Source: Spongiactinospora rosea (lineage in GTDB: Bacteria; Actinomycetota; Actinomycetes; Streptosporangiales; Streptosporangiaceae). Taken from it: 64,000 nt of DNA. Each line of letters opens with the position of its first letter. Positions within the stretch are counted from its first letter, which is position 1. Shown here in pieces: positions 27,964-37,648 of this stretch. The notes under the pieces were generated by a model. It did not search any database and had not been told where the DNA came from. It worked only from the letters and a program-made list of their open reading frames with translations. The position numbers were made by a program, and so were the translations under genes. The stretch is from contig NZ_QMEY01000003.1 in NCBI RefSeq assembly GCF_003315795.1, forward strand, positions 248,001 to 312,000. Reading direction: 5' to 3'.

Positions 27964-28914
27964 GTGAGATTATCGAACCGTACTGGCGTGGTGGCGGGTT
28001 GCCTGGCGTTGTCCGCGTCGCTGACCCCCGCCGCGGTGGCCCAGACCGCCGCAGACACGGAGGTCGAGCTCCCCGGCACGGGAGTCGTCCTGCACGAGAA
28101 GTCCACCGACCGCCTGCTGGTCACCGCCTACACCGTGGGCGACGACGTCTACCTGCGGGACAAGGGCGGCGACAGGTTCACCAAGAAGACCGGCTACACC
28201 GAGATCACGGTCTCGCCCGGCGGCGCGCGGGCGGCCGGACTGCGCGACAAGTACGCGAGCAGCGGCTACGACCAGGTCGTCATCATCGACCGGGCGGCCG
28301 GGACGGCCAAGTTCATCAAGACCGTCAAGGACCCCTTCATCACCGCGGCGCTCTACTGGTCCCGCGACGGGCGCAAGATCCTCGGCACGACGCAGCGGAA
28401 GTCCGGCAAGGTGTGGTACACCCACGGCTTCTCCGTGATCGACGTCGCGGCGGGCACGCACAGCGAGGTCAGGCTGCCCAAGCCGCTCAAGGACCACAGC
28501 TTCGAGTGGAGCCCCGACGCGCGCGGCGTGTACATCGTGCAGGACAAGAAGATCCTGGAGTACGGGCTCGACGGCAAGCCGCGCCGCACCCTCGACGTGG
28601 GCGTCACCGCGTCCGGTGACGACGTGTTCTCCCCCTCCGGCAAGCGGCTGCTGACCTGGTGCCCGAAGAGGTACCGGGAGCCGGTGTGCGTGGCCGACCG
28701 CCGCAGCGGCAAGGTCGTCAAGCGGCTCGCGGTGGACCCGGAGCACCTGTGGGGCTGGTGGGACGAGTCCCACCTCATGATGGTGTACAAGAACGACGGG
28801 GCCTACCGGTCGGTCGTCACCGACCTGAACGGCAAGACCACCCGGGTGCTCGCCGACATCACCTCCGCCGCGTGGAAGAAGGACGACGTCTACCTCTCCT
28901 ACACGCGCAGGTGA
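27964..28914 (+). CDS. Secreted WD40-like beta-propeller protein
   Basis: 316 aa. A Sec signal peptide (VVAGCLALSASLTPAAVAQTA) precedes repeated blades of roughly 45 residues typical of PD40/TolB-type propellers (ALYWSRDGRKILGTT, FEWSPDARGVYIVQD, DDVFSPSGKRLLTWC). No catalytic motif is visible; a binding or scaffolding role outside the membrane is likely. The GTG start matches the signal peptide. Its 3' end overlaps selD convergently by 16 bp. Confidence 0.8.
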   Translation: MRLSNRTGVVAGCLALSASLTPAAVAQTAADTEVELPGTGVVLHEKSTDRLLVTAYTVGDDVYLRDKGGDRFTKKTGYTEITVSPGGARAAGLRDKYASSGYDQVVIIDRAAGTAKFIKTVKDPFITAALYWSRDGRKILGTTQRKSGKVWYTHGFSVIDVAAGTHSEVRLPKPLKDHSFEWSPDARGVYIVQDKKILEYGLDGKPRRTLDVGVTASGDDVFSPSGKRLLTWCPKRYREPVCVADRRSGKVVKRLAVDPEHLWGWWDESHLMMVYKNDGAYRSVVTDLNGKTTRVLADITSAAWKKDDVYLSYTRR

Positions 28915-29912
28915 GCCGCCGTACCGCGGATCACGACCGGATGGTCGCCGCGCGGCGTCAGCCGGCCGATGACCGGCGCGCCGGGGATCTCCCCGGCGAT
29001 GAGCAGCCCGCCTGAGGTCTGGGCGTCGGCGAGCAGCAGCAGCGTGTGCTCGCCGGCGTCGCCCGGGTCGAGGTGCGGCGCCACCCACTCCAGATTGCGC
29101 CGCGACCCGCCGGGCACGTAGCCGTCGCGGATCGCCTCCCAGGCCCCCTCGATGACCGGTACGGCGGCGGCGTCGAGTTCGGCGGTGACGCCCGAGGCGC
29201 GGGCCAGCTTGTACAGGTGGCCGAGCAGCCCGAAGCCGGTCACGTCGGTGGCGCAGCGCACGCCGGCGTCCGTCGCGAGGGCGGCGGCGTCGGCGTTGAG
29301 CGCGGTCATCACCTCCACCGCCTGGGGGAAGGTCTCGCCGGTCGCCTTGTGCCGGTTGTTCAGCACGCCGGAGCCGATCGGCTTGGTCAGGGACAGCGGC
29401 AGACCCGGGCGTCCGGCGTCGTTGCGCATCAGGCGATCGGGGTCGGCCATGCCGGTGACGGCCATGCCGTACAGCGGCTCGGGGCCGTGCACGCTGTGGC
29501 CGCCCGCCAGGTGGCAGCCCGCCTTGGCGGCGATGTCGGCCCCGCCGCGCAGCACCTCGCCCGCGACGTCGTAGGACAGGCCCTCGCGCGGCCAGCACAG
29601 CAGGTTCAGGGCGACGAGGGGGCGGCCGCCCATCGCGTACACGTCGGACAGCGCGTTGGCGGCGGCGATGCGCCCCCAGTCGTAGGGGTCGTCCACGACC
29701 GGCGTGAAGAAGTCGGCGGTGCTCACCACGGCCTGGCCCGCGGAGATCCGCACCACGGCGGCGTCGTCGCCGGTGTCCAGGCCCACCAGCAGGTCGCCCT
29801 GCGGCGCCCCCACGGTCAGCCCGGTCAGCCCGGCCAGCACGGCTTCGAGCTCACCGGCCGGGATCTTGCAGGCGCAGCCGCCGCCCAGGGCGTAGTGCGT
29901 CAAACGGAGCAT
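28899..29912 (-). CDS. selD: Selenide, water dikinase (selenophosphate synthetase)
   Basis: 337 aa; makes selenophosphate from selenide and ATP, the selenium donor for selenocysteine or selenouridine. The catalytic pair is in GGGCACKI: Cys13 and Lys16 align with E. coli Cys17 and Lys20, so this SelD is itself a cysteine form. Further landmarks are TADFFTPVVDDPYDWGRIAAANALSDVYAMGG (quoted in part: metal and ATP-site segment) and ADAQTSGGLLIA. A strong GGGAGG site precedes the ATG. It is the last gene of an operon containing a membrane protein with an in-frame TGA. No selA, selB, selC or selU gene is in the window. Confidence 0.95.
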   Translation of the reverse strand: MLRLTHYALGGGCACKIPAGELEAVLAGLTGLTVGAPQGDLLVGLDTGDDAAVVRISAGQAVVSTADFFTPVVDDPYDWGRIAAANALSDVYAMGGRPLVALNLLCWPREGLSYDVAGEVLRGGADIAAKAGCHLAGGHSVHGPEPLYGMAVTGMADPDRLMRNDAGRPGLPLSLTKPIGSGVLNNRHKATGETFPQAVEVMTALNADAAALATDAGVRCATDVTGFGLLGHLYKLARASGVTAELDAAAVPVIEGAWEAIRDGYVPGGSRRNLEWVAPHLDPGDAGEHTLLLLADAQTSGGLLIAGEIPGAPVIGRLTPRGDHPVVIRGTAAHLRV

Positions 29913-29984: not shown

Positions 29985-30317
29985 TCAACGGACCTTGCGC
30001 CGCAGGTGCTGCCCCAGCGCATGCAGGGCCAGGCGAACGGCCGCGCCCCGGCGGCCGGGCGCGACCAGTCCCGCCATCCGCAGCGGCAGCGCGAGCCCGC
30101 GCCAGACCCGCATCCGCCCGTTCCCGTCGACCGCCACGGCGAGCGGCGCCCCGCACCCGGCCCGGGGCGGCACGGGGTACTCGGCGGCCAGCCCGGGGTC
30201 CCGGCACGACCGCACCACGACGGGCACGGCCAGCACCGCCGCCAGCCGCCCCGCGATCACCGAACACCCCCCGCACCCGGCATCGTGCACCACCACCAGC
30301 CGCGCCACGTCCCCCAT
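29985..30317 (-). CDS. Thioredoxin-like protein with CGGC motif
   Basis: About 110 aa from ATG 30317 (in-frame GTGs at 30326 and 30359 are alternatives). The first strand and redox motif read ARLVVVHDAGCGGCSVIAGRL, with Cys15-x-x-Cys18 at the start of a helix, as in thioredoxin folds. A later GAPLAVAVDGNGRMRVWRG resembles the beta3-beta4 hairpin, although the usual cis-Pro position is not obvious. Additional Cys occur at SCRD and AGCGAP. It has no clear signal peptide, so it may act in the cytoplasm. It lies between the TGA-containing membrane gene and selD, suggesting electron transfer to that membrane protein. Confidence 0.72.
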   Translation of the reverse strand: MGDVARLVVVHDAGCGGCSVIAGRLAAVLAVPVVVRSCRDPGLAAEYPVPPRAGCGAPLAVAVDGNGRMRVWRGLALPLRMAGLVAPGRRGAAVRLALHALGQHLRRKVR

Positions 30318-30444
30318 CGAGGTCACCACCCGCAGGCCGACGCGCGAGCGACCGGCCACCGCGCGCCCCCGCCTGTCTCCGATTCCGCAGGCCGCCGCGT
30401 GCCCTCGGCCCTGCCGTGGACCATCGCCGGCCGCGTCCCTTCGT

Positions 30445-31194
30445 TCATCGGCCGCCGATGCCGCAGGCGAGGGCGATCACTGTGGCCAGGGCGGTCGCGA
30501 AGGCGAGGGGGCGGTGGGCGGCTCGCCAGCGGGCGTTCCAGGTTCCGTCGCCGCCGGGGGTGGGGCCGTCGTGGGCGACGGTGGCGGCCGCGGCGGTCCA
30601 GCGGGCCGCCGCGAAGCCGGTCGCGGCGGCGAGCGCGCCCACGGGGGGGACGGCGAGCAGCAGCGCGGCCAGCAGCAGGTGGGGGAGCGCCGAGGGGGAG
30701 TAGGTCCGCATCCCGGTGCCCATCTCGAACCCGAACTGCAGCGCCCCCGCCACCCGCCCGCGCAGCACCACGTGCTCGGGTACCAGCCGCCGGTTCTCCG
30801 GCACGGCGAACCGCAGCACCCCCGCCTCGCGGAACAGCACCGCCACCGCGGCGGGCACGAGGAGGGCGGGCCGCAGCGGGCCCGGCAGCAATGCCTGGAG
30901 CACCCCGCCCACGGCGGCGGCGCAGGCGGCGACGCTCCACGCGCCGGCCAGGAGCCCGAGGCCGAAGCAGGCCAGGGCGGTGCGTCCGCGCCAGACCGGC
31001 GCGCTCAGCAGGAACGCCGAGTTGTGGCTTCACGTACTGCCCGAGTTGGCGTACCCGGCGTTGAGCCCCGCCCACAGGAACATGACCAGGACGGGCGCGT
31101 CCAGCCCGGCGAGCGCCCACGCTCCGCCCGCGATCGGCACGGCCAGCGCCTCCGGGCGCAGCATCGCTCGCCGCGCGGCCGTACCCGCGGTCAC
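30445..31194 (-). CDS. Candidate selenoprotein: polytopic membrane protein with in-frame TGA (Sec55)
   Basis: Read as one gene, this encodes 249 aa with codon 55 = TGA (31030-31032). The GTG start overlaps the upstream stop by 4 bp (GTGA). Upstream residues 15-45 form a membrane segment ending FLWAGLNAGYANSGST; downstream the same frame continues at once with SHNSAFLLSAPVWRGR and four more hydrophobic segments (about 71-102, 104-124, 171-200, 225-247) up to a normal stop. There is no ribosome site or plausible start just after the TGA. A hairpin with a GGUCU loop follows it, and selD ends the operon, so selenocysteine insertion is the best reading. The family was not recognised. A nonsense pseudogene is the main alternative. 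Confidence 0.75.
30987..31003 (-). promoter_or_regulatory. Candidate bacterial SECIS hairpin
   Basis: On the transcript, CGCGCC-GGUCU-GGCGCG forms a perfect 6-bp stem with a 5-nt loop. The stem starts 27 nt after the UGA and the loop 33 nt after it. GGUCU is the same apical loop sequence as in the E. coli fdhF SECIS (AGGUCU). A lower pairing GCGU(U)C with GACGC and a second hairpin nearer the UGA (CUCGGC-GUUCCU-GCUGAG, nt 9-26) are also possible. The placement fits known bacterial SECIS elements, which lie inside the coding region just downstream of the UGA. Confidence 0.6.
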
Positions 31195-31745
31195 AGTTCG
31201 CACATGGCGATGGTCAGGCCCCGGTAGCGGGTGCCGTCGCCCCAGGTCACGGTGGTCATCGCGTCGGAACACCGGTAGAGGTCGCCGTCCGCGGTCCAGC
31301 GCCAGGCGCTTCTGGTGTCCCGGGAACCGCAGAAGGAGTCGGTCCGGTGCGCGGTGTACTCCTCGCCGACGTCGGAGTCGGAGCGGGAGCCCTCGAAGTG
31401 CCAGTTGGCGTCGTTGCAGGGGTAGGAGCCGATCCGCCAGCCGCCGTAGCAGGCGGCGGGTCCGGAATACCAGTTCGCGTCCGCTTCGGAGTACCCCTCC
31501 GGGTAGGCGTCCTTGCAGTCGCCCGAAGGCCACTCCGAGGACGGTCCCCGGGAGGCGCGGGCCGCGCGGCGGGTCAGGTACCAGTCGAACGGCGTGAGCG
31601 TGGCCGCGAGGGCGGCGGCGGCCAGGCCGCGCAGCAGGGCGGCGCGCGAGATCGGCGGGCCGCCGATGAGCGCGCGGACCTGGCTGGGTTCCCGTCCGGT
31701 GCCCGTGCCGATCTCCGGGATGGAGTCGGTGACCTGTGTGCTCAT
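31191..31745 (-). CDS. Membrane-anchored Cys/Trp-rich extracytoplasmic protein
   Basis: 184 aa. A hydrophilic N-terminus (1-31) is followed by one membrane-spanning segment or uncleaved signal (about 32-57, SRAALLRGLAAAALAATLTPF), then an exported domain with six cysteines (77, 99, 110, 139, 159, 182) and eight tryptophans in the whole chain. Even cysteine number suggests three disulfides. No family was recognised. It overlaps the upstream thioredoxin-fold gene by 4 bp (ATGA) with an AAGGAGGA site, and the downstream TGA-containing gene by 4 bp. It may be the electron donor, acceptor or folding client of the redox proteins around it. The Trp/Cys richness recalls amine-dehydrogenase light chains, but their motifs are not evident. 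Confidence 0.78.
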   Translation of the reverse strand: MSTQVTDSIPEIGTGTGREPSQVRALIGGPPISRAALLRGLAAAALAATLTPFDWYLTRRAARASRGPSSEWPSGDCKDAYPEGYSEADANWYSGPAACYGGWRIGSYPCNDANWHFEGSRSDSDVGEEYTAHRTDSFCGSRDTRSAWRWTADGDLYRCSDAMTTVTWGDGTRYRGLTIAMCEL

Positions 31746-32272
31746 GAGCGTCCTCCTTGGTTCGCTGGTACGGCTGGGGCGGGCAGGACCCGCGAGAGGA
31801 GGGCGGGAACGTCGGTGTCGGCGTAGACGAAGGCCCGGTGGGCGATGATGCCGTTCGCATGGACCAGGTAGAGGCAGGGGGTGTAGCCCTCGTACATCTC
31901 GGCCCACGCGCCGGGGTCGGCCAGCGGCCCGCCGGTGCCCGTGCCCGTGCCGGCGGCGGGGTCGGCGAGGCGTCGCGCGGCGTCCTCCCCGGCCACCAGG
32001 CCGAGCAGCCGGACGTCCGGCCGGCCGGCGGTGAACGCGCTCGCCTGCCGCCACAGCGCGGGGCACAGCGCGCAGCCGCCGTCCAGCAGGACGACGAGCG
32101 AGACCGACCGCCCTTCGGCGGGCGCCAGCCGGGCGGGCGCGAGCCGTACGGCGTCACCGCTTCCCTCGGCCCGCTCCAGACCCCGCAACCGCGCATAGAC
32201 GGCCCCCACGGCGAGCACCGCGAACGCCGACACCCCCATCGAGCACAGCGCCAGCGCCGTCCCGGCGTTCAC
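31742..32272 (-). CDS. MauD-like membrane-anchored thioredoxin-fold protein
   Basis: 176 aa from GTG 32272, which has GAGG 7 bp upstream (a GTG at 32305 is also in frame). An N-terminal anchor (residues 5-27) is followed by a thioredoxin fold: SLVVLLDGGCALCPALW carries Cys67-x-x-Cys70; later YTPCLYLVHANGIIAHRAFVY fits the central sheet with a Thr-Pro in the cis-Pro position. This layout resembles MauD/TlpA proteins that reduce or form disulfides outside the membrane. It lies upstream of the Cys-rich protein and the Sec-candidate membrane protein, consistent with a thiol relay. Confidence 0.8.
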   Translation of the reverse strand: MNAGTALALCSMGVSAFAVLAVGAVYARLRGLERAEGSGDAVRLAPARLAPAEGRSVSLVVLLDGGCALCPALWRQASAFTAGRPDVRLLGLVAGEDAARRLADPAAGTGTGTGGPLADPGAWAEMYEGYTPCLYLVHANGIIAHRAFVYADTDVPALLSRVLPAPAVPANQGGRS

Positions 32273-32351
32273 CGCCCACCTCGGCGACCGGTCAGGGGCG
32301 AGCACATGTTCGCGCGAGGCCCGCCGCCTGAGCGAGGGCGGGGCGCGGAGG

Positions 32352-33104
32352 TCAATCGGACCACCGGACTCGGATGCCGGTGAGGACGGTGTCCACGACG
32401 GTGCCGGCGGCCAGGCCGCGGGTCTCGTCCCGGCCGGGGCGGGTGGGGAAGACGACGGTGTAGGCGGCGGTGCCGGTGGCGTAGACGTAGCGCCACTCGA
32501 ACGGCGTGCCTGCGAGGGCGGCGCGGGTGGCCGGGTCGAGGTCGAGGCGTTCCTTCCACACCTCGGCGTCGCCGAGCCGGGCGCCGCGCCATTCCGGCAG
32601 GCCGTCCCTGGCCGCGCGGGCGTCCCGGATCATGACCACCAGCCGGTCTCCCATGCCGACCACGAACGTGCCGTACTGGCGTACGCCCGGACCGGTGCCG
32701 CGGCGCGGCGTCAGCGTCGCCCCCTGACGCGAGTCGCGGAAGCGGACCGATGTCGTGATCGAGTCGAGGACCGCAGAGCGCGGCGCGGGACCGGCGAACC
32801 ACGTCGTGGCCTCGTTGTAGGGGCCCGCCCAGACCAGGCAACTGCGCGACCGGTCCGCCGCCTCGTAGAGCACGAGGTCGTACCCCTTGCGCCCGCGCAC
32901 CTCACGCCGCGCCCCCGGCAGGATCTTGCCGGGGATCACCTTGTGCTGCCCGGCGGGCGCGAGGTCATAAGCGCGCAGCAGGCCGGGCCCCGCCATCCGC
33001 GTGTGGCCGTACCATTCCAGCCCGCCCGCCTGCGCCGGCAGGTCCACCGTCACCCGCGCGCCGTCCGCCGCCCGCAGGACGGCCTGCGCCATCGTCGCGA
33101 CCAT
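32352..33104 (-). CDS. Unknown protein, first gene of the Sec-candidate operon
   Basis: 250 aa from ATG 33104, chosen for its GAGGGG site; a longer frame starts at 33191. No signal peptide or membrane segment is obvious; it has one Cys. The sequence alternates hydrophobic strands (KGYDLVLYEAADRSRSCLVW, GTFVVGMGDRLVVMIRD, EWRYVYATGTAAYTVVF), suggesting a mostly beta fold. I do not recognise the family. It is 79 bp upstream of the MauD-like gene on the same strand and likely heads the operon that ends in selD. Confidence 0.65.
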   Translation of the reverse strand: MVATMAQAVLRAADGARVTVDLPAQAGGLEWYGHTRMAGPGLLRAYDLAPAGQHKVIPGKILPGARREVRGRKGYDLVLYEAADRSRSCLVWAGPYNEATTWFAGPAPRSAVLDSITTSVRFRDSRQGATLTPRRGTGPGVRQYGTFVVGMGDRLVVMIRDARAARDGLPEWRGARLGDAEVWKERLDLDPATRAALAGTPFEWRYVYATGTAAYTVVFPTRPGRDETRGLAAGTVVDTVLTGIRVRWSD

Positions 33105-33249
33105 ATGCCCCTCAACATGCCCTTCATCGACCGAAGTCACGAAACCCGGCCAGGCTATGCGCGCGGGCCGCGTCGCCCCCGGCGAGGACACACCACATGG
33201 TCAACGCTTGAACCGCACCCGGTGCACCCTGGGCGCGAGGCGGCGGGGC

Positions 33250-33641: not shown

Positions 33642-34466
33642 TCAGCCGCTCGCCGCGGGGGCGGGGCTACGCCGGCGCGACTCGGGGACGATCAGCGGGG
33701 TGCGGCTCTGCGGGTCTTCGATGATCTCGCAGCGCAGGTCGAAGACCTCGGCCACCAGGTCGGCGGTGACGATCTGCGCGGGGTCGCCCTCCGCGATGAT
33801 CCGGCCGTCGCGCATCACGATCAGGTGGGTGGCGTAGCGGCACGCCTGGTTCAGGTCGTGCAGTACGGCGACCAGCGTGCGGCCCTGTTCGTGCAGGTCG
33901 GCGCAGAGGTCCAGGACCTCGATCTGGTGGGCGATGTCCAGGAAGGTGGTCGGTTCGTCAAGCAGCAGGATCGGCGTCTCCTGGGCGAGCACCATGGCCA
34001 GCCACACCCGCTGGCGCTGTCCGCCGGACAGCTCGTCCACCGGGCGGTCGGCCAGGTCGGAGACGTGCGTGGCGTCCATCGCGGCGTTGACCGCCGCCTC
34101 GTCCTCGCGCGACCACTGGCGCATCAGCCGCTGGTGCGGATAGCGCCCGCGGGAGACCAGGTCGGCGACGGTGATCCCGTCGGGCACGATCGAGCTCTGC
34201 GGCAGCAGCCCGAGCCGCCTGGCCACCTCCTTCGACGGCAGCGAGGTGATCACGCCGCCGTCCAGGTAGACGGCCCCGGTGCGCGGCTTGAGCATGCGGG
34301 CCAGGGCGCGCAGCGTGGTGGACTTGCCGCAGGCGTTGGGGCCGATGATCACGGTGAAGGACCGGTCGGGGATGGCGATCTGGAGGTTGGTGGCGATCTC
34401 ACGCTCGCCGTACCCGAGGGTGAGGTCGGTGCCGTGCAGGCGCGGGCCGGTGCCATCGATGCTCAA
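33642..34466 (-). CDS. Iron-siderophore ABC transporter ATP-binding protein (FepC-like)
   Basis: 274 aa. Walker A GPNACGKST, signature ELSGGQRQR, Walker B ILLLDEPTTFLDIAHQ, and an H-loop at VAVLHDLNQACRYATHL, all typical of FepC/FhuC ATPases. I use the TTG at 34466, which overlaps the permease stop (TTGA) and follows GGAAGGAA; the longer frame upstream is antisense-like and overlaps the permease. It energises uptake by the two FecCD permeases upstream; the lipoprotein is divergent. Expected to be repressed by iron through the box at 36597. Confidence 0.92.
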   Translation of the reverse strand: MSIDGTGPRLHGTDLTLGYGEREIATNLQIAIPDRSFTVIIGPNACGKSTTLRALARMLKPRTGAVYLDGGVITSLPSKEVARRLGLLPQSSIVPDGITVADLVSRGRYPHQRLMRQWSREDEAAVNAAMDATHVSDLADRPVDELSGGQRQRVWLAMVLAQETPILLLDEPTTFLDIAHQIEVLDLCADLHEQGRTLVAVLHDLNQACRYATHLIVMRDGRIIAEGDPAQIVTADLVAEVFDLRCEIIEDPQSRTPLIVPESRRRSPAPAASG

Positions 34467-35485
34467 CGTCGTTCCTTCCGCAGGAGCAGGACCAGGTAGC
34501 CACCGCCGAGCGCGGCGGTGAGCACGCCGACCGGGAGCTGGACGGGCGCGAGCACACGCTGCGCCGCGAAGTCGGCGAGTACCAGCAGCACCGCGCCCAT
34601 CAGCGCGGACGCCACCAGCGTGACGCCGGAGGAGCGGGTCAGTCGGCGGGCGAGCTGGGGCGCGGTGAGCGCGACGAACGCCACCGGGCCCGCCGCGGCC
34701 GTCGCCACGCCGCACAGCATCACCGCGACGGCCATCGCGCAGCCGCGTACGCGCTGCACCTTGATGCCCATCGCCGCGGCGGCGTCGTCGCCCATCTCCA
34801 TCATCCGCATCGGCCGCGACAGCGGCACGCACAGCGGCAGCAGCACGGCCAGGGCGAGCGCGACGGGCACGGCGTGTTCCCACCCGCGCCCGCCCAGGCT
34901 GCCGGTCAGCCAGGCCGCGGCCGTCGCCGCGTCGTTGATGTTGGCGCGGGTGAGCAGGTAGGAGTTGACCGCGAGCAGGATGGCGTTGACGCCGATGCCC
35001 ACGAGGACCAGCCGGTAGCCGTGCACGCCGCGCCGGTAGGCCAGGACGTAGACGCAGACCGCCGCGAGCGCGCTGCCGGCCAGCGCACCGCCCGCGATCA
35101 TCGCCGTCGCCCCTCCGGCGACCGTCGCGATGATCGCCCCGGTGGCCGCGCCGGAGGTGAAGCCGAGGAAGTCGGGGCTGCCCAGCGGGTTGCGGGTGAG
35201 GCTTTGGAACAGCGCGCCGCTGACCGCGAACGCCGCCCCCACCAGCAGCCCGGTGACCACGCGCGGCGCGCGCAGGTTGCCGACGATGAACTCGCTCGCC
35301 GGAGTGCCGCCACCGGTCAGCGTGGCCACCACCTCGCCGATCGGCAGCGGGAAGTCGCCGGTGGCGATGGCGAGCACCGCGACCACCGTGCCCGCGACCA
35401 CCAGGCCCGCGGCGACGATGATCCCGCGTGGGGACAGCCGGATGGACAGCCGCCGGGCGCGCAGGGCGGAGATGCCTTGGCTCAT
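34463..35485 (-). CDS. FecCD-family iron-siderophore permease
   Basis: 340-aa inner-membrane permease with about 9-10 hydrophobic helices. Family landmarks: RAPRVVTGLLVGAAFAVSGALFQSLTRNPLGSPDFLG (in part) and GPVAFVALTAPQLARRLTR. It overlaps the ATPase gene by 4 bp downstream and the second permease gene by 4 bp upstream (ATGA), so the importer subunits are translationally coupled. It pairs with the adjacent permease to form the heterodimeric channel. Confidence 0.92.
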   Translation of the reverse strand: MSQGISALRARRLSIRLSPRGIIVAAGLVVAGTVVAVLAIATGDFPLPIGEVVATLTGGGTPASEFIVGNLRAPRVVTGLLVGAAFAVSGALFQSLTRNPLGSPDFLGFTSGAATGAIIATVAGGATAMIAGGALAGSALAAVCVYVLAYRRGVHGYRLVLVGIGVNAILLAVNSYLLTRANINDAATAAAWLTGSLGGRGWEHAVPVALALAVLLPLCVPLSRPMRMMEMGDDAAAAMGIKVQRVRGCAMAVAVMLCGVATAAAGPVAFVALTAPQLARRLTRSSGVTLVASALMGAVLLVLADFAAQRVLAPVQLPVGVLTAALGGGYLVLLLRKERR

Positions 35486-36537
35486 AGCGCGGCGAGCCTC
35501 CCCTTGCGGACCAGCGCGATGAAGAAGGGGGCTCCGAGGATCGCGCACACGATCCCGGCCTGTACCTCGCCCGGCCGCCCGATCAGCCGCCCGGCGATGT
35601 CGGAGCCGAGCAGCAGGATGGGCGCGAGCAGCGCGGAGAACGGCAGCACCCACCGCTGGTCGGGGCCGACCAGCGCGCGTACGGCGTGCGGCACCGCCAG
35701 GCCGACGAAGAAGACCGGGCCGATCGCCGCGGTCGCCGAGCCGCACAGCAGCGTGATCGCCACCGCGGCCAGCAGGCGGGTGCGGCCGACGCTCATGCCG
35801 AGGGCGCGGCCCGCGTCGTCGCCGAGCGCGAGCGCGTTGAGCGGCCCGGCCAGCAGTACGCCGAGCAGCACCCCCGCTGCCATGAACGGCACGAGCTGGG
35901 CGACCACCTCACCGCCCTGCCCGGCCAGCGAGCCGGACATCCAAAAGCGCATCCGGTCGTAGGTCTCGGTGTCGATCCTGAGCACGGCGGAGGAGGCCGC
36001 GGTGAGCACCGCGCCCATCGCCACGCCCGCCAGGGCCAGCCGTACCGGGCTGGTCCCGCTGCGGCCGGCCGAGCCCAGCGCGTAGACCGCGGCGAAGGCG
36101 AGCGCCGCCCCGGCGAAGGCGAACCAGACGTAGACCGCCGGGCTGGACCAGCCGAGCAGGGCCAGCGCGATGACCACGCCGAACGCCGCCCCCTGGCCGA
36201 TGCCGAGCAGCCCCGGGTCGGCGAGCGGGTTGCGGGTCAGGCTCTGCATCAGCGCCCCGGCCAGCCCGAGCGCGGCCCCCGTGCCGATGCCGAGGACGGT
36301 GCGCGGCACCCGGAGCTCACGGATCACGACGTGGTCGGCGGAGCCGGTGGGGTCGGTCAGCGCCTGGACGACGGTGGCCAGCGGCATCGACCGTGCGCCC
36401 AGCACCAGGCTGAGCACCGCGACGAGCAGCAGCAGCGCGACTCCTGCGGCCAGGCCGATGCTCCGTGCGGTGTTGGCCTTGCGCGGCACTCGGCGGGACG
36501 TCTCAGGTGTGGTCGCCGCCAGGGTGGCCGGGCTCAC
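35482..36537 (-). CDS. FecCD-family iron-siderophore permease
   Basis: 351-aa polytopic permease, partner of the following gene. Motifs: RVPRTVLGIGTGAALGLAGALMQSLTRNPLADPGLLG (in part) and GPVFFVGLAVPHAVRALVG. I chose GTG 36537 rather than ATG 36555 because the sequence between them (AAAGGAGGGGG) is the ribosome site. It is the first minus-strand gene of the divergent siderophore locus, and the IdeR-type box lies about 60 bp upstream. Confidence 0.9.
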   Translation of the reverse strand: MSPATLAATTPETSRRVPRKANTARSIGLAAGVALLLLVAVLSLVLGARSMPLATVVQALTDPTGSADHVVIRELRVPRTVLGIGTGAALGLAGALMQSLTRNPLADPGLLGIGQGAAFGVVIALALLGWSSPAVYVWFAFAGAALAFAAVYALGSAGRSGTSPVRLALAGVAMGAVLTAASSAVLRIDTETYDRMRFWMSGSLAGQGGEVVAQLVPFMAAGVLLGVLLAGPLNALALGDDAGRALGMSVGRTRLLAAVAITLLCGSATAAIGPVFFVGLAVPHAVRALVGPDQRWVLPFSALLAPILLLGSDIAGRLIGRPGEVQAGIVCAILGAPFFIALVRKGRLAAL

Positions 36538-36596
36538 TCCACCCCCTCCTTTCACTGTGCGGCCGAGGCCGGGCTACCCTCAAGCGCACTGAATGA

Positions 36597-36611
36597 AGGT
36601 TAGCCTAACCT
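36597..36611. promoter_or_regulatory. Iron box (IdeR/DmdR-type operator)
   Basis: AGGTTAGCCTAACCT is a perfect 7-1-7 palindrome in the 97-bp divergent promoter of the siderophore importer. It closely matches the actinobacterial IdeR/DmdR1 consensus TTAGGTTAGGCTAACCTAA. Iron-loaded regulator bound here would block both the permease/ATPase operon and the binding-protein gene. Confidence 0.9.
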
Positions 36612-36634
36612 CATAAGATCGTATGGGAGGGGTC

Positions 36635-37648
36635 ATGTCCAATCCTGTCCTGCACCGCCGGGGCTTTCTGACCGCGGTGGCGGGCTCCGCCGCCCTCATG
36701 GGGCTGGCCGCCTGCGGGGGCTCGGGCGGCGGCGCGGCGGCCTCCCCGGCCGCGAGCGGCGGTGGGTGGGCCTTCACCGACGACCGCGGCAAGAAGGTGT
36801 CCCTGTCCGCGCGGCCGACCCGGGTCGTGGCACAGGCGGCCGCCGCGGCGGCGCTGTGGGACTTCGGGGTGCGCCCGATCGCGGTCTTCGGCCCGCACCG
36901 GCTCAAGGACGGCGGGCGCGACCCGCAGGTCGGCGAGGTGGACATCACCAAGGTCGAATCGCTCGGCAACGTGTTCGACGAGTTCAACGTGGAGAAGTAC
37001 GCCTCGCTGCGGCCGGAGCTGCTGGTCAGCGGGATGTACGACAAGAACGAGCTGTGGTACGTGCCGGAGAAGTCGGCGGCGGCCATCGAGAGCGTGGCCC
37101 CCACGGTCGGCGTGATGCTCTCCGGCCCGCCGCTGGACAAGGTCATCGGCAGGTACGCCGAGCTGGCCGCCGCACTCGGCGCCGATCTCAACGCGCCCGC
37201 CGTGCTGGCCGCCAAGGCCAGGTTCGACGCCGCGTCGGCCAAGCTGACCGAGCTGGCCGGGGAGAAGAAGCTGAAGGTCCTGATCATGTCGGGCGGCCCG
37301 GACAGCATGTGGGTCGTCGTTCCCGCCGACCACGCGGGCGTCACGTACATGAGGTCCGTCGGGGTGGATGTGGTCGTGCCGGAAAAGCCGGACTCCGCGG
37401 GCTTCTTCGAGACGTTGAGCTGGGAGAACGCCGACAAGTACGCGGCGGACGTGATCCTCTACGACGACCGCGCCCGGTCGATGACCATCGCGGAGATGAA
37501 GCAGAAGCCGACCTTCGCCAAGCTGCCCGCGGTGGCGGCGGGCCAGACGTACCCGTGGCGCGCGGAGGAGCGGTTCAGTTATCTCGGCCACGCGGGGGTG
37601 CTCGAAGAGCTGATCGCCGCCCTCGACAAGTCGAAGAAGCTCGTCTAG
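36635..37648 (+). CDS. Iron-siderophore ABC transporter substrate-binding lipoprotein
   Basis: 337 aa. The N-terminus HRRGFLTAVAGSAALMGLAACGG combines twin arginines with a lipobox (LAAC), so export may be by Tat with lipidation. The mature part is a FecB/FhuD-like type III binding protein (TRVVAQAAAAAALWDFGVRPI, EKYASLRPELLVSGMYD). GGGAGGGG precedes ATG 36635. Divergent from the two permeases across the iron box. Its TAG stop is shared in overlapping CTAG with the convergent helicase-domain gene. Confidence 0.92.
   Translation: MSNPVLHRRGFLTAVAGSAALMGLAACGGSGGGAAASPAASGGGWAFTDDRGKKVSLSARPTRVVAQAAAAAALWDFGVRPIAVFGPHRLKDGGRDPQVGEVDITKVESLGNVFDEFNVEKYASLRPELLVSGMYDKNELWYVPEKSAAAIESVAPTVGVMLSGPPLDKVIGRYAELAAALGADLNAPAVLAAKARFDAASAKLTELAGEKKLKVLIMSGGPDSMWVVVPADHAGVTYMRSVGVDVVVPEKPDSAGFFETLSWENADKYAADVILYDDRARSMTIAEMKQKPTFAKLPAVAAGQTYPWRAEERFSYLGHAGVLEELIAALDKSKKLV

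Follow-up and report, generated by a model that had tools for sequence, protein, structure and literature searches.

Does a minus-strand gene of Spongiactinospora rosea, divided by a single in-frame TGA, encode a selenoprotein, and what might the selenium do there? The gene (Table 1) lies in a 64,000-nt stretch of S. rosea DNA, hereafter the window, and its relatives are called the window family or window clade. A sequence-only reading of the window had described two stretches in the same minus-strand frame parted only by TGA 31030–31032, and its coordinates are exact: between GTG 31192–31194 and the stop TGA 30445–30447, this is the sole interruption. As it also described, the GTG start overlaps the stop of the preceding gene, sharing bases with it (GTGA), and 194 open codons follow the internal TGA down to the final stop. 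The earliest in-frame ATG, GTG or TTG past that TGA is GTG 30912, where the 155-residue database entry P0002 begins. With the high GC content of this DNA, chance often leaves long frames open (a 265-residue frame on the minus strand and a 672-residue frame on the plus strand cover this stretch), so relatives are needed to decide. The open frame and hairpin of one sequence prove little, given these chance frames and a loose SECIS rule that is also passed when the window sequence is recoded synonymously, in 55 of 100 versions. At the level of sequence, the evidence that exceeds chance is the comparison with relatives, with TGA in 80 of 80.

Table 1 Features of the selenoprotein locus in the window
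Feature	Position	Strand	Description
selD, selenophosphate synthetase	28899..29912	−	TIGR00476, 383 bits
Small CGGC-motif frame between selenoprotein and selD	29985..30359	−	124 codons; no Pfam or NCBIfam match
Predicted selenoprotein gene	30445..31194	−	249 codons + stop, Sec as residue 55; helical membrane-type, chains to CcdA superfamily
SECIS-type hairpin	30987..31003	−	6 bp, GGUCU apical loop 30993–30997, 32 nt from UGA to loop; covariation, RNAalifold
Second small hairpin, possibly accessory	31005..31020	−	5 bp, between UGA and SECIS loop; not in RNAalifold consensus
In-frame TGA, predicted Sec codon	31030..31032	−	TGA in 80/80 aligned relatives; aligns with TGC/Cys in distant relatives
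Tat-type exported (predicted) Cys-rich protein, upstream partner	31191..31745	−	Invariant Cys, invariant WxW; alignment A2
Thioredoxin-like, MauD-like protein	31742..32305	−	Hydrophobic stretch near the N terminus; CxxC and a Pro both invariant; alignment A3
279-residue protein of unknown family, first gene of conserved neighbourhood	32352..33191	−	Cluster 0, 57/80 loci

Relatives were collected by a pattern and tblastn scan, taking one genome per species, and the scan did not favour TGA, as the query had Cys at position 55. All of the best 80 of 96 relatives, which were fetched, have TGA at the aligned codon. The surrounding motif is SGSxU-x-x-NSA, in which the SGS before the TGA and the N, S and A after it are invariant in 81/81 sequences, as is QFGFEMGT further downstream. 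The frame continues for 184–200 codons after the UGA in 77 of the 78 loci with a stop present, the exception being L016 with 295; L041 and L066 reach contig ends and are outside this count. In the order to which S. rosea belongs, 69 of 249 genomes contain the family, in 79 matches, and 77 of these matches have exactly one stop, a TGA, in a count of stops per match rather than a codon-by-codon reading of stop position. The two stop-free matches start downstream of the Sec position; one of them, L118, has the UGA a short way upstream, and L117 is without that region. Genome G186 has L117 as a second copy; its match begins at profile column 72, and it looks degraded. Two family matches each are found in 10 of the 69 genomes (such as G183, G230, G147 and G202), some of them a few kilobases apart. 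No Cys member was seen among the relatives read within the window’s own clade, and a database search with residues 36–100 returned no full-length Cys form of this clade among 136 candidates, which is weak evidence for the absence of Cys forms since the search needs exact 5-residue words.

A larger family, marked by SPUG or SPCG and found in other classes of the phylum (L100–L119), has both Sec and Cys forms. Of 20 such distant loci fetched, 18 were readable at the Sec position, with UGA in 16 and Cys in two (L102 and L108); selA is found in all 16 genomes with UGA loci and is absent from both genomes with Cys loci. Full-length database proteins have Cys, as WSPCG, in 12 of 12 cases, and several of the distant loci place GGUC-loop hairpins after the UGA. 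Both the alignment and the profiles put the Sec column of the window family onto the Sec/Cys column of the distant family. Judged from these sequences, the pattern in the distant family is a classical Sec/Cys exchange that tracks the presence of selA. With a UGA common to all 80 relatives read and aligned with Cys in distant ones, the predicted product of the gene is a membrane protein containing selenocysteine.

The RNA around the codon was examined in the same relatives. The hairpin CGCGCC-GGUCU-GGCGCG, proposed from the window alone, does lie 27–43 nt past the UGA, and its SECIS-like character gains support across relatives from both synonymous constraint and covariation. For synonymous constraint, the 81 sequences were thinned to 49; codons 56–71 have a mean z of 6.06, versus 0.57 elsewhere (s.d. 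1.54, 200 codons). The signal within this segment sits mostly at codons 56, 59 and 62–67, with codons 58, 60, 61 and 69–71 unconstrained; codons 49, 51, 52 and 54 are constrained too, and isolated codons outside the UGA region exceed a z of 5 (169, 187 and 209). Covariation was measured on 80 of the 81 sequences (66 distinct rows), with L060, one codon shorter, omitted. Columns 31–45 pair as GC in 32, UA in 20 and UG in 13, linking a first codon position to a third codon position, and a possible seventh outer pair (29–47) is unpaired in 44 of 66. The hairpins have 92.2% of cells paired versus 87.2 in shuffles, and a covariation of 0.184 versus 0.112; shuffles equalled them in 0 of 500 cases on four of five measures and in 41 of 500 on pair types. 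Versions of the structure slid along the alignment pair at 30–48%, and all are beaten on covariation. RNAalifold recovers the 6-bp hairpin unaided; the second hairpin (helix 1), which it does not recover, has 95.2% of its cells paired and small covariation.

The best hairpins have a GGUCU loop in 75 of 81 sequences. A SECIS rule simplified from the bacterial rule of PMC13188914 is passed by 74 of 81 sequences versus 2,070 of 8,100 synonymous controls, the seven failures all missing the energy rule. For any single sequence, passing is uninformative, since the Cys form L102 passes too, as do 55 of the 100 window controls mentioned above. The window has no Rfam match at gathering thresholds, a result meaningful for SECIS only if Rfam has a bacterial SECIS family.

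The machinery for selenocysteine is encoded in the same genome: selA (416.7 bits), selB (245 bits) and tRNA-Sec (67.5 bits) each score over their family cut-offs, selB only just (cut-off 242.25 bits). selB adjoins tRNA-Sec (C19:2767-3898), selA is on another contig (C17) and the selenoprotein operon is on C23. Downstream of the selenoprotein gene the sequence-only reading had recognized selD, correctly; one small frame lies between the two genes. Within the order, selA is over cut-off in 143 of 249 genomes and in 69 of the 69 that have the gene (p = 2.6e-21, genomes being treated as independent; as their relatedness is uncorrected, this is not a calibrated probability). The 80 loci come from 76 distinct genomes, of which 73 have selA over cut-off, two (G608 and G615) have fragments at contig edges and one, the 4.5-Mb MAG G605 behind L041, has the gene with no selA found. 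Within the 5-kb flanks, selD is present in 13/80 loci and selA in 13/80; by hand count, selA is within about 12 kb of the gene in about 18 of the 69 genomes. A 2016 survey (PMC5029168) counts Amycolatopsis vancoresmycina DSM 44592 among the organisms that have selD with no known selenium use; a different strain of this species has the gene (L028) together with selA.

Placing Sec at residue 55, the sequence-only reading had named what would speak against it: homologues with neither Cys nor TGA at that position, a genome lacking selA, selB and selC, or a sequencing error at the TGA. None of the three was found. The relatives have TGA in 80/80 and the distant ones TGA or Cys; selA, selB and tRNA-Sec are present, with selD in the window itself; and an error is very unlikely, as independent genomes share the TGA, including that of the 91%-identical L001. 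Taking these comparisons together, the product of this gene is predicted with high confidence to contain selenium.

What the selenium would do is suggested by the neighbouring genes. Pfam and NCBIfam searches on the selenoprotein and its neighbours gave no match in the window except selD. The neighbouring families were followed with profiles to which some of the counted loci had themselves contributed; by this count, the thioredoxin-like family lies upstream in 81/81 loci and the Cys-rich family in 77/81. The Cys-rich family has seven cysteines that are invariant or nearly so; invariant ones in the window row are Cys 80, 102, 113, 142, 162 and 185. TAT_signal was detected in 7 of 28 of its members, and the structure model of this partner is poor (pLDDT 64, pTM 0.42). 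The thioredoxin-like family has weak matches to secreted thioredoxins. The CGGC-motif frame on the other side of the gene could be a thiol partner or selenium carrier. Elsewhere in the window, the genes at 33642–37648 look like those of a putative iron-siderophore ABC transporter, with two permeases, an ATPase and a binding protein.

Among the distant loci, 14 of 18 have a match to the thioredoxin-like family, and in 7 of 18 (L105, L109, L111, L112, L114, L115 and L116) a Tat Cys-rich protein ends 68–78 nt before the Sec codon. The Tat-type protein directly upstream in L105 has 22 cysteines in 150 residues. In at least seven of the 18, the WSPUG loci L100, L101, L103, L104, L106, L107 and L110, no Cys-rich Tat protein was seen directly upstream, where there is a thioredoxin-like gene alone or neither. 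MauE scores over its cut-off at three loci: it lies upstream in L103 and in L105, and on the opposite strand close to L026, a member of the window clade. MauD is matched in L111 and L116 at 96 bits (96.5 versus an equivalog cut-off of 188.6), and the start of the Cys-rich protein of L116 matches the methylamine dehydrogenase (MADH) small-subunit model at 25.6 bits versus a cut-off of 196.85. As these MauD and MADH matches fall below the equivalog cut-offs, we speak of a mau-like cassette and not of a mau cluster. The window’s own MauD-like and Cys-rich proteins have no NCBIfam match, and the Cys-rich family compared with solved MADH chains gave no match at E up to 10.

The protein itself is linked to CcdA in two steps, a link that, like the mau-like cassette, was out of reach of the sequence-only reading. 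The window family matches the SPUG/SPCG family at E 4e-28, and that family matches CcdA at E 1e-7 (probability 91.6); compared directly, the window family and the CcdA profile give no match (hhalign probability 0). Along this chain, Sec falls at the SPC motif in the first helix of CcdA. DsbD_TM or DsbD_2 is found below threshold in 5 of 10 distant relatives (13.4–22.2 bits versus cut-offs of 24.9 and 27.1), and no Pfam DsbD match exceeds its gathering score in 42 window-family members; some database relatives carry PF13386 or PF02683, and one, P0138, is named CcdA by its source. CcdA requires a second redox Cys, in its fourth helix, and alignments A1 and A5 contain no further invariant or nearly invariant Cys at all. 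An invariant Arg163 was considered as a replacement for it and dropped, as the profile alignment does not place Arg163 there. In structure comparison, the top Foldseek match is CcdA (5vkv), weakly (E 0.29, TM 0.33); the top VIA-align rows are an Rnf subunit and amino-acid transporters, with CcdA not among the rows shown. Comparing its halves with each other detected no internal two-fold repeat (E 0.14 over 16 columns and E 0.013 over 23).

We consider it likely that the gene encodes a CcdA-related membrane protein whose selenocysteine relays electrons across the membrane to the thioredoxin-like partner, a judgement we have lowered slightly because no Cys-rich partner was seen next to the gene in the WSPUG relatives. 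In the proposed scheme, the hairpin would direct SelB and tRNA-Sec to insert Sec. The resulting selenolate, lying at the site of CcdA’s first redox Cys, would attack the CxxC of the MauD-like thioredoxin, predicted to lie outside the membrane, which in turn would set or reset disulfides of the neighbouring Tat-exported Cys-rich protein. With no second conserved Cys, the resolving thiol would need to come from the partner. That electrons flow in this direction is a reading we lean towards, less firmly than towards the presence of selenium.

The most durable of the other explanations, and still an unlikely one, keeps the Sec and has the protein transport or export a compound of sulfur or selenium, its CcdA fold used in the manner of LysE or TauE and its Sec serving to bind the substrate rather than to relay electrons. 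Some relatives are named ‘sulfite exporter TauE/SafE’ by their sources, transporters make up most of the top VIA-align rows and only one conserved candidate redox residue is present; against these stand the CxxC gene and the Cys-rich exported protein upstream, and MauE in L103 and L105, all of which point to thiol chemistry on an exported protein. A little less probable again is a real Sec with the flow reversed, in which the protein would be a DsbB-like, oxidase-side partner that makes disulfides in the Cys-rich protein. The seven conserved cysteines of that exported partner would suit such a role, as would the mostly aerobic life of actinomycetes; the relatives, however, chain to CcdA and DsbD, which donate electrons to the outside, and not to DsbB or VKOR.

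It is very improbable that translation simply ends at the UGA and that re-initiation then yields the downstream half as a protein of its own. Databases would seem to show such a protein: of 298 homologues, the 120 listed are all 146–185 residues long and comprise the downstream half only, and among the matches listed nearly all that have a name bear the label hypothetical or uncharacterized, with DUF1772 added for one. These entries lack the upstream half because annotation truncated them at the UGA. Also in favour of this reading, 3 of 80 loci have an ATG no more than 15 codons past the UGA. Re-initiation would leave unexplained the TGA in every relative, the invariant residues on both sides of it, the synonymous constraint around it, the co-occurrence of the gene with selA and the Cys homologues that run through as one protein; the AlphaFold model of the read-through product also folds as a whole (pLDDT 93.9, pTM 0.91). 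Least probable of all is readthrough of the UGA as another amino acid such as Trp, with no selenium: occasional readthrough is known in general, but relatives with a sense codon have Cys and not Trp, selA is in the 16 UGA genomes and absent from the two Cys genomes, and a SECIS-type hairpin is present.

Returning to the selenocysteine relay, the family would be new. The sequence-only reading knew of no described selenoprotein of this kind, and the family is indeed absent from the 119 prokaryotic selenoprotein families and subfamilies of Table 1 in a 2026 review (PMC13188914), as far as that table can tell: neither SGSxU nor SPUG is given for any entry, and some entries give no motif. Within the scope of that table, this would be a selenoprotein family missing from the 2026 catalogue. 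NCBIfam (June 2026) has no match to the selenoprotein up to E 1 and no selenoprotein match for 10 distant relatives, and no earlier description appeared among the open-access papers that literature searches listed. A current selenoprotein finder may, by its own statement (PMC12013277), filter out families without Cys homologues; depending on these, it could miss the window clade.

If the prediction is true, a new selenoprotein family is spread over about 25 named actinomycete genera, and all 120 listed database entries are cut at their UGA. Selenium would then be part of a membrane thiol relay, and an exported Cys-rich family of unknown role would gain a testable partner; the prediction also bears on why actinomycetes retain Sec machinery. 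More tentatively, we envisage a membrane electron relay with a single selenium, in which a CcdA-type protein has lost its second Cys and kept one Sec, and in which an actinomycete mau-like cassette matures a new class of Tat-exported Cys-rich proteins; this may be one reason that many soil actinomycetes keep their Sec machinery.

The locus resembles several known systems in part. With the catalogued selenoproteins, as far as PMC13188914 describes them, it shares the UGA, the SECIS-type hairpin and the Sec machinery, and YeeE/YedE and the DsbD-fusion-like TsoB of that catalogue are membrane-related by name, as here; it differs in that NCBIfam, cited there for many entries, gives the window family no selenoprotein match. 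The membrane domain of CcdA and DsbD (PF02683, PF13386) has in its first helix the SPC to which SPUG/SPCG aligns, whereas the selenoprotein family has Sec for the first Cys, the second conserved Cys is missing and the window family itself matches neither model. The order of a thioredoxin gene followed by one for a Tat-type Cys-rich protein is that of the mau genes (MauE, MauD and MauA), from which the cassette differs in its MauD and MADH matches under cut-off and in the window’s proteins, which match none. Finally, the GGUCU apical loop is identical to that of the E. coli fdhF SECIS. Here the loop lies 32 nt past the UGA, farther than in fdhF, with a possible second hairpin between the two.
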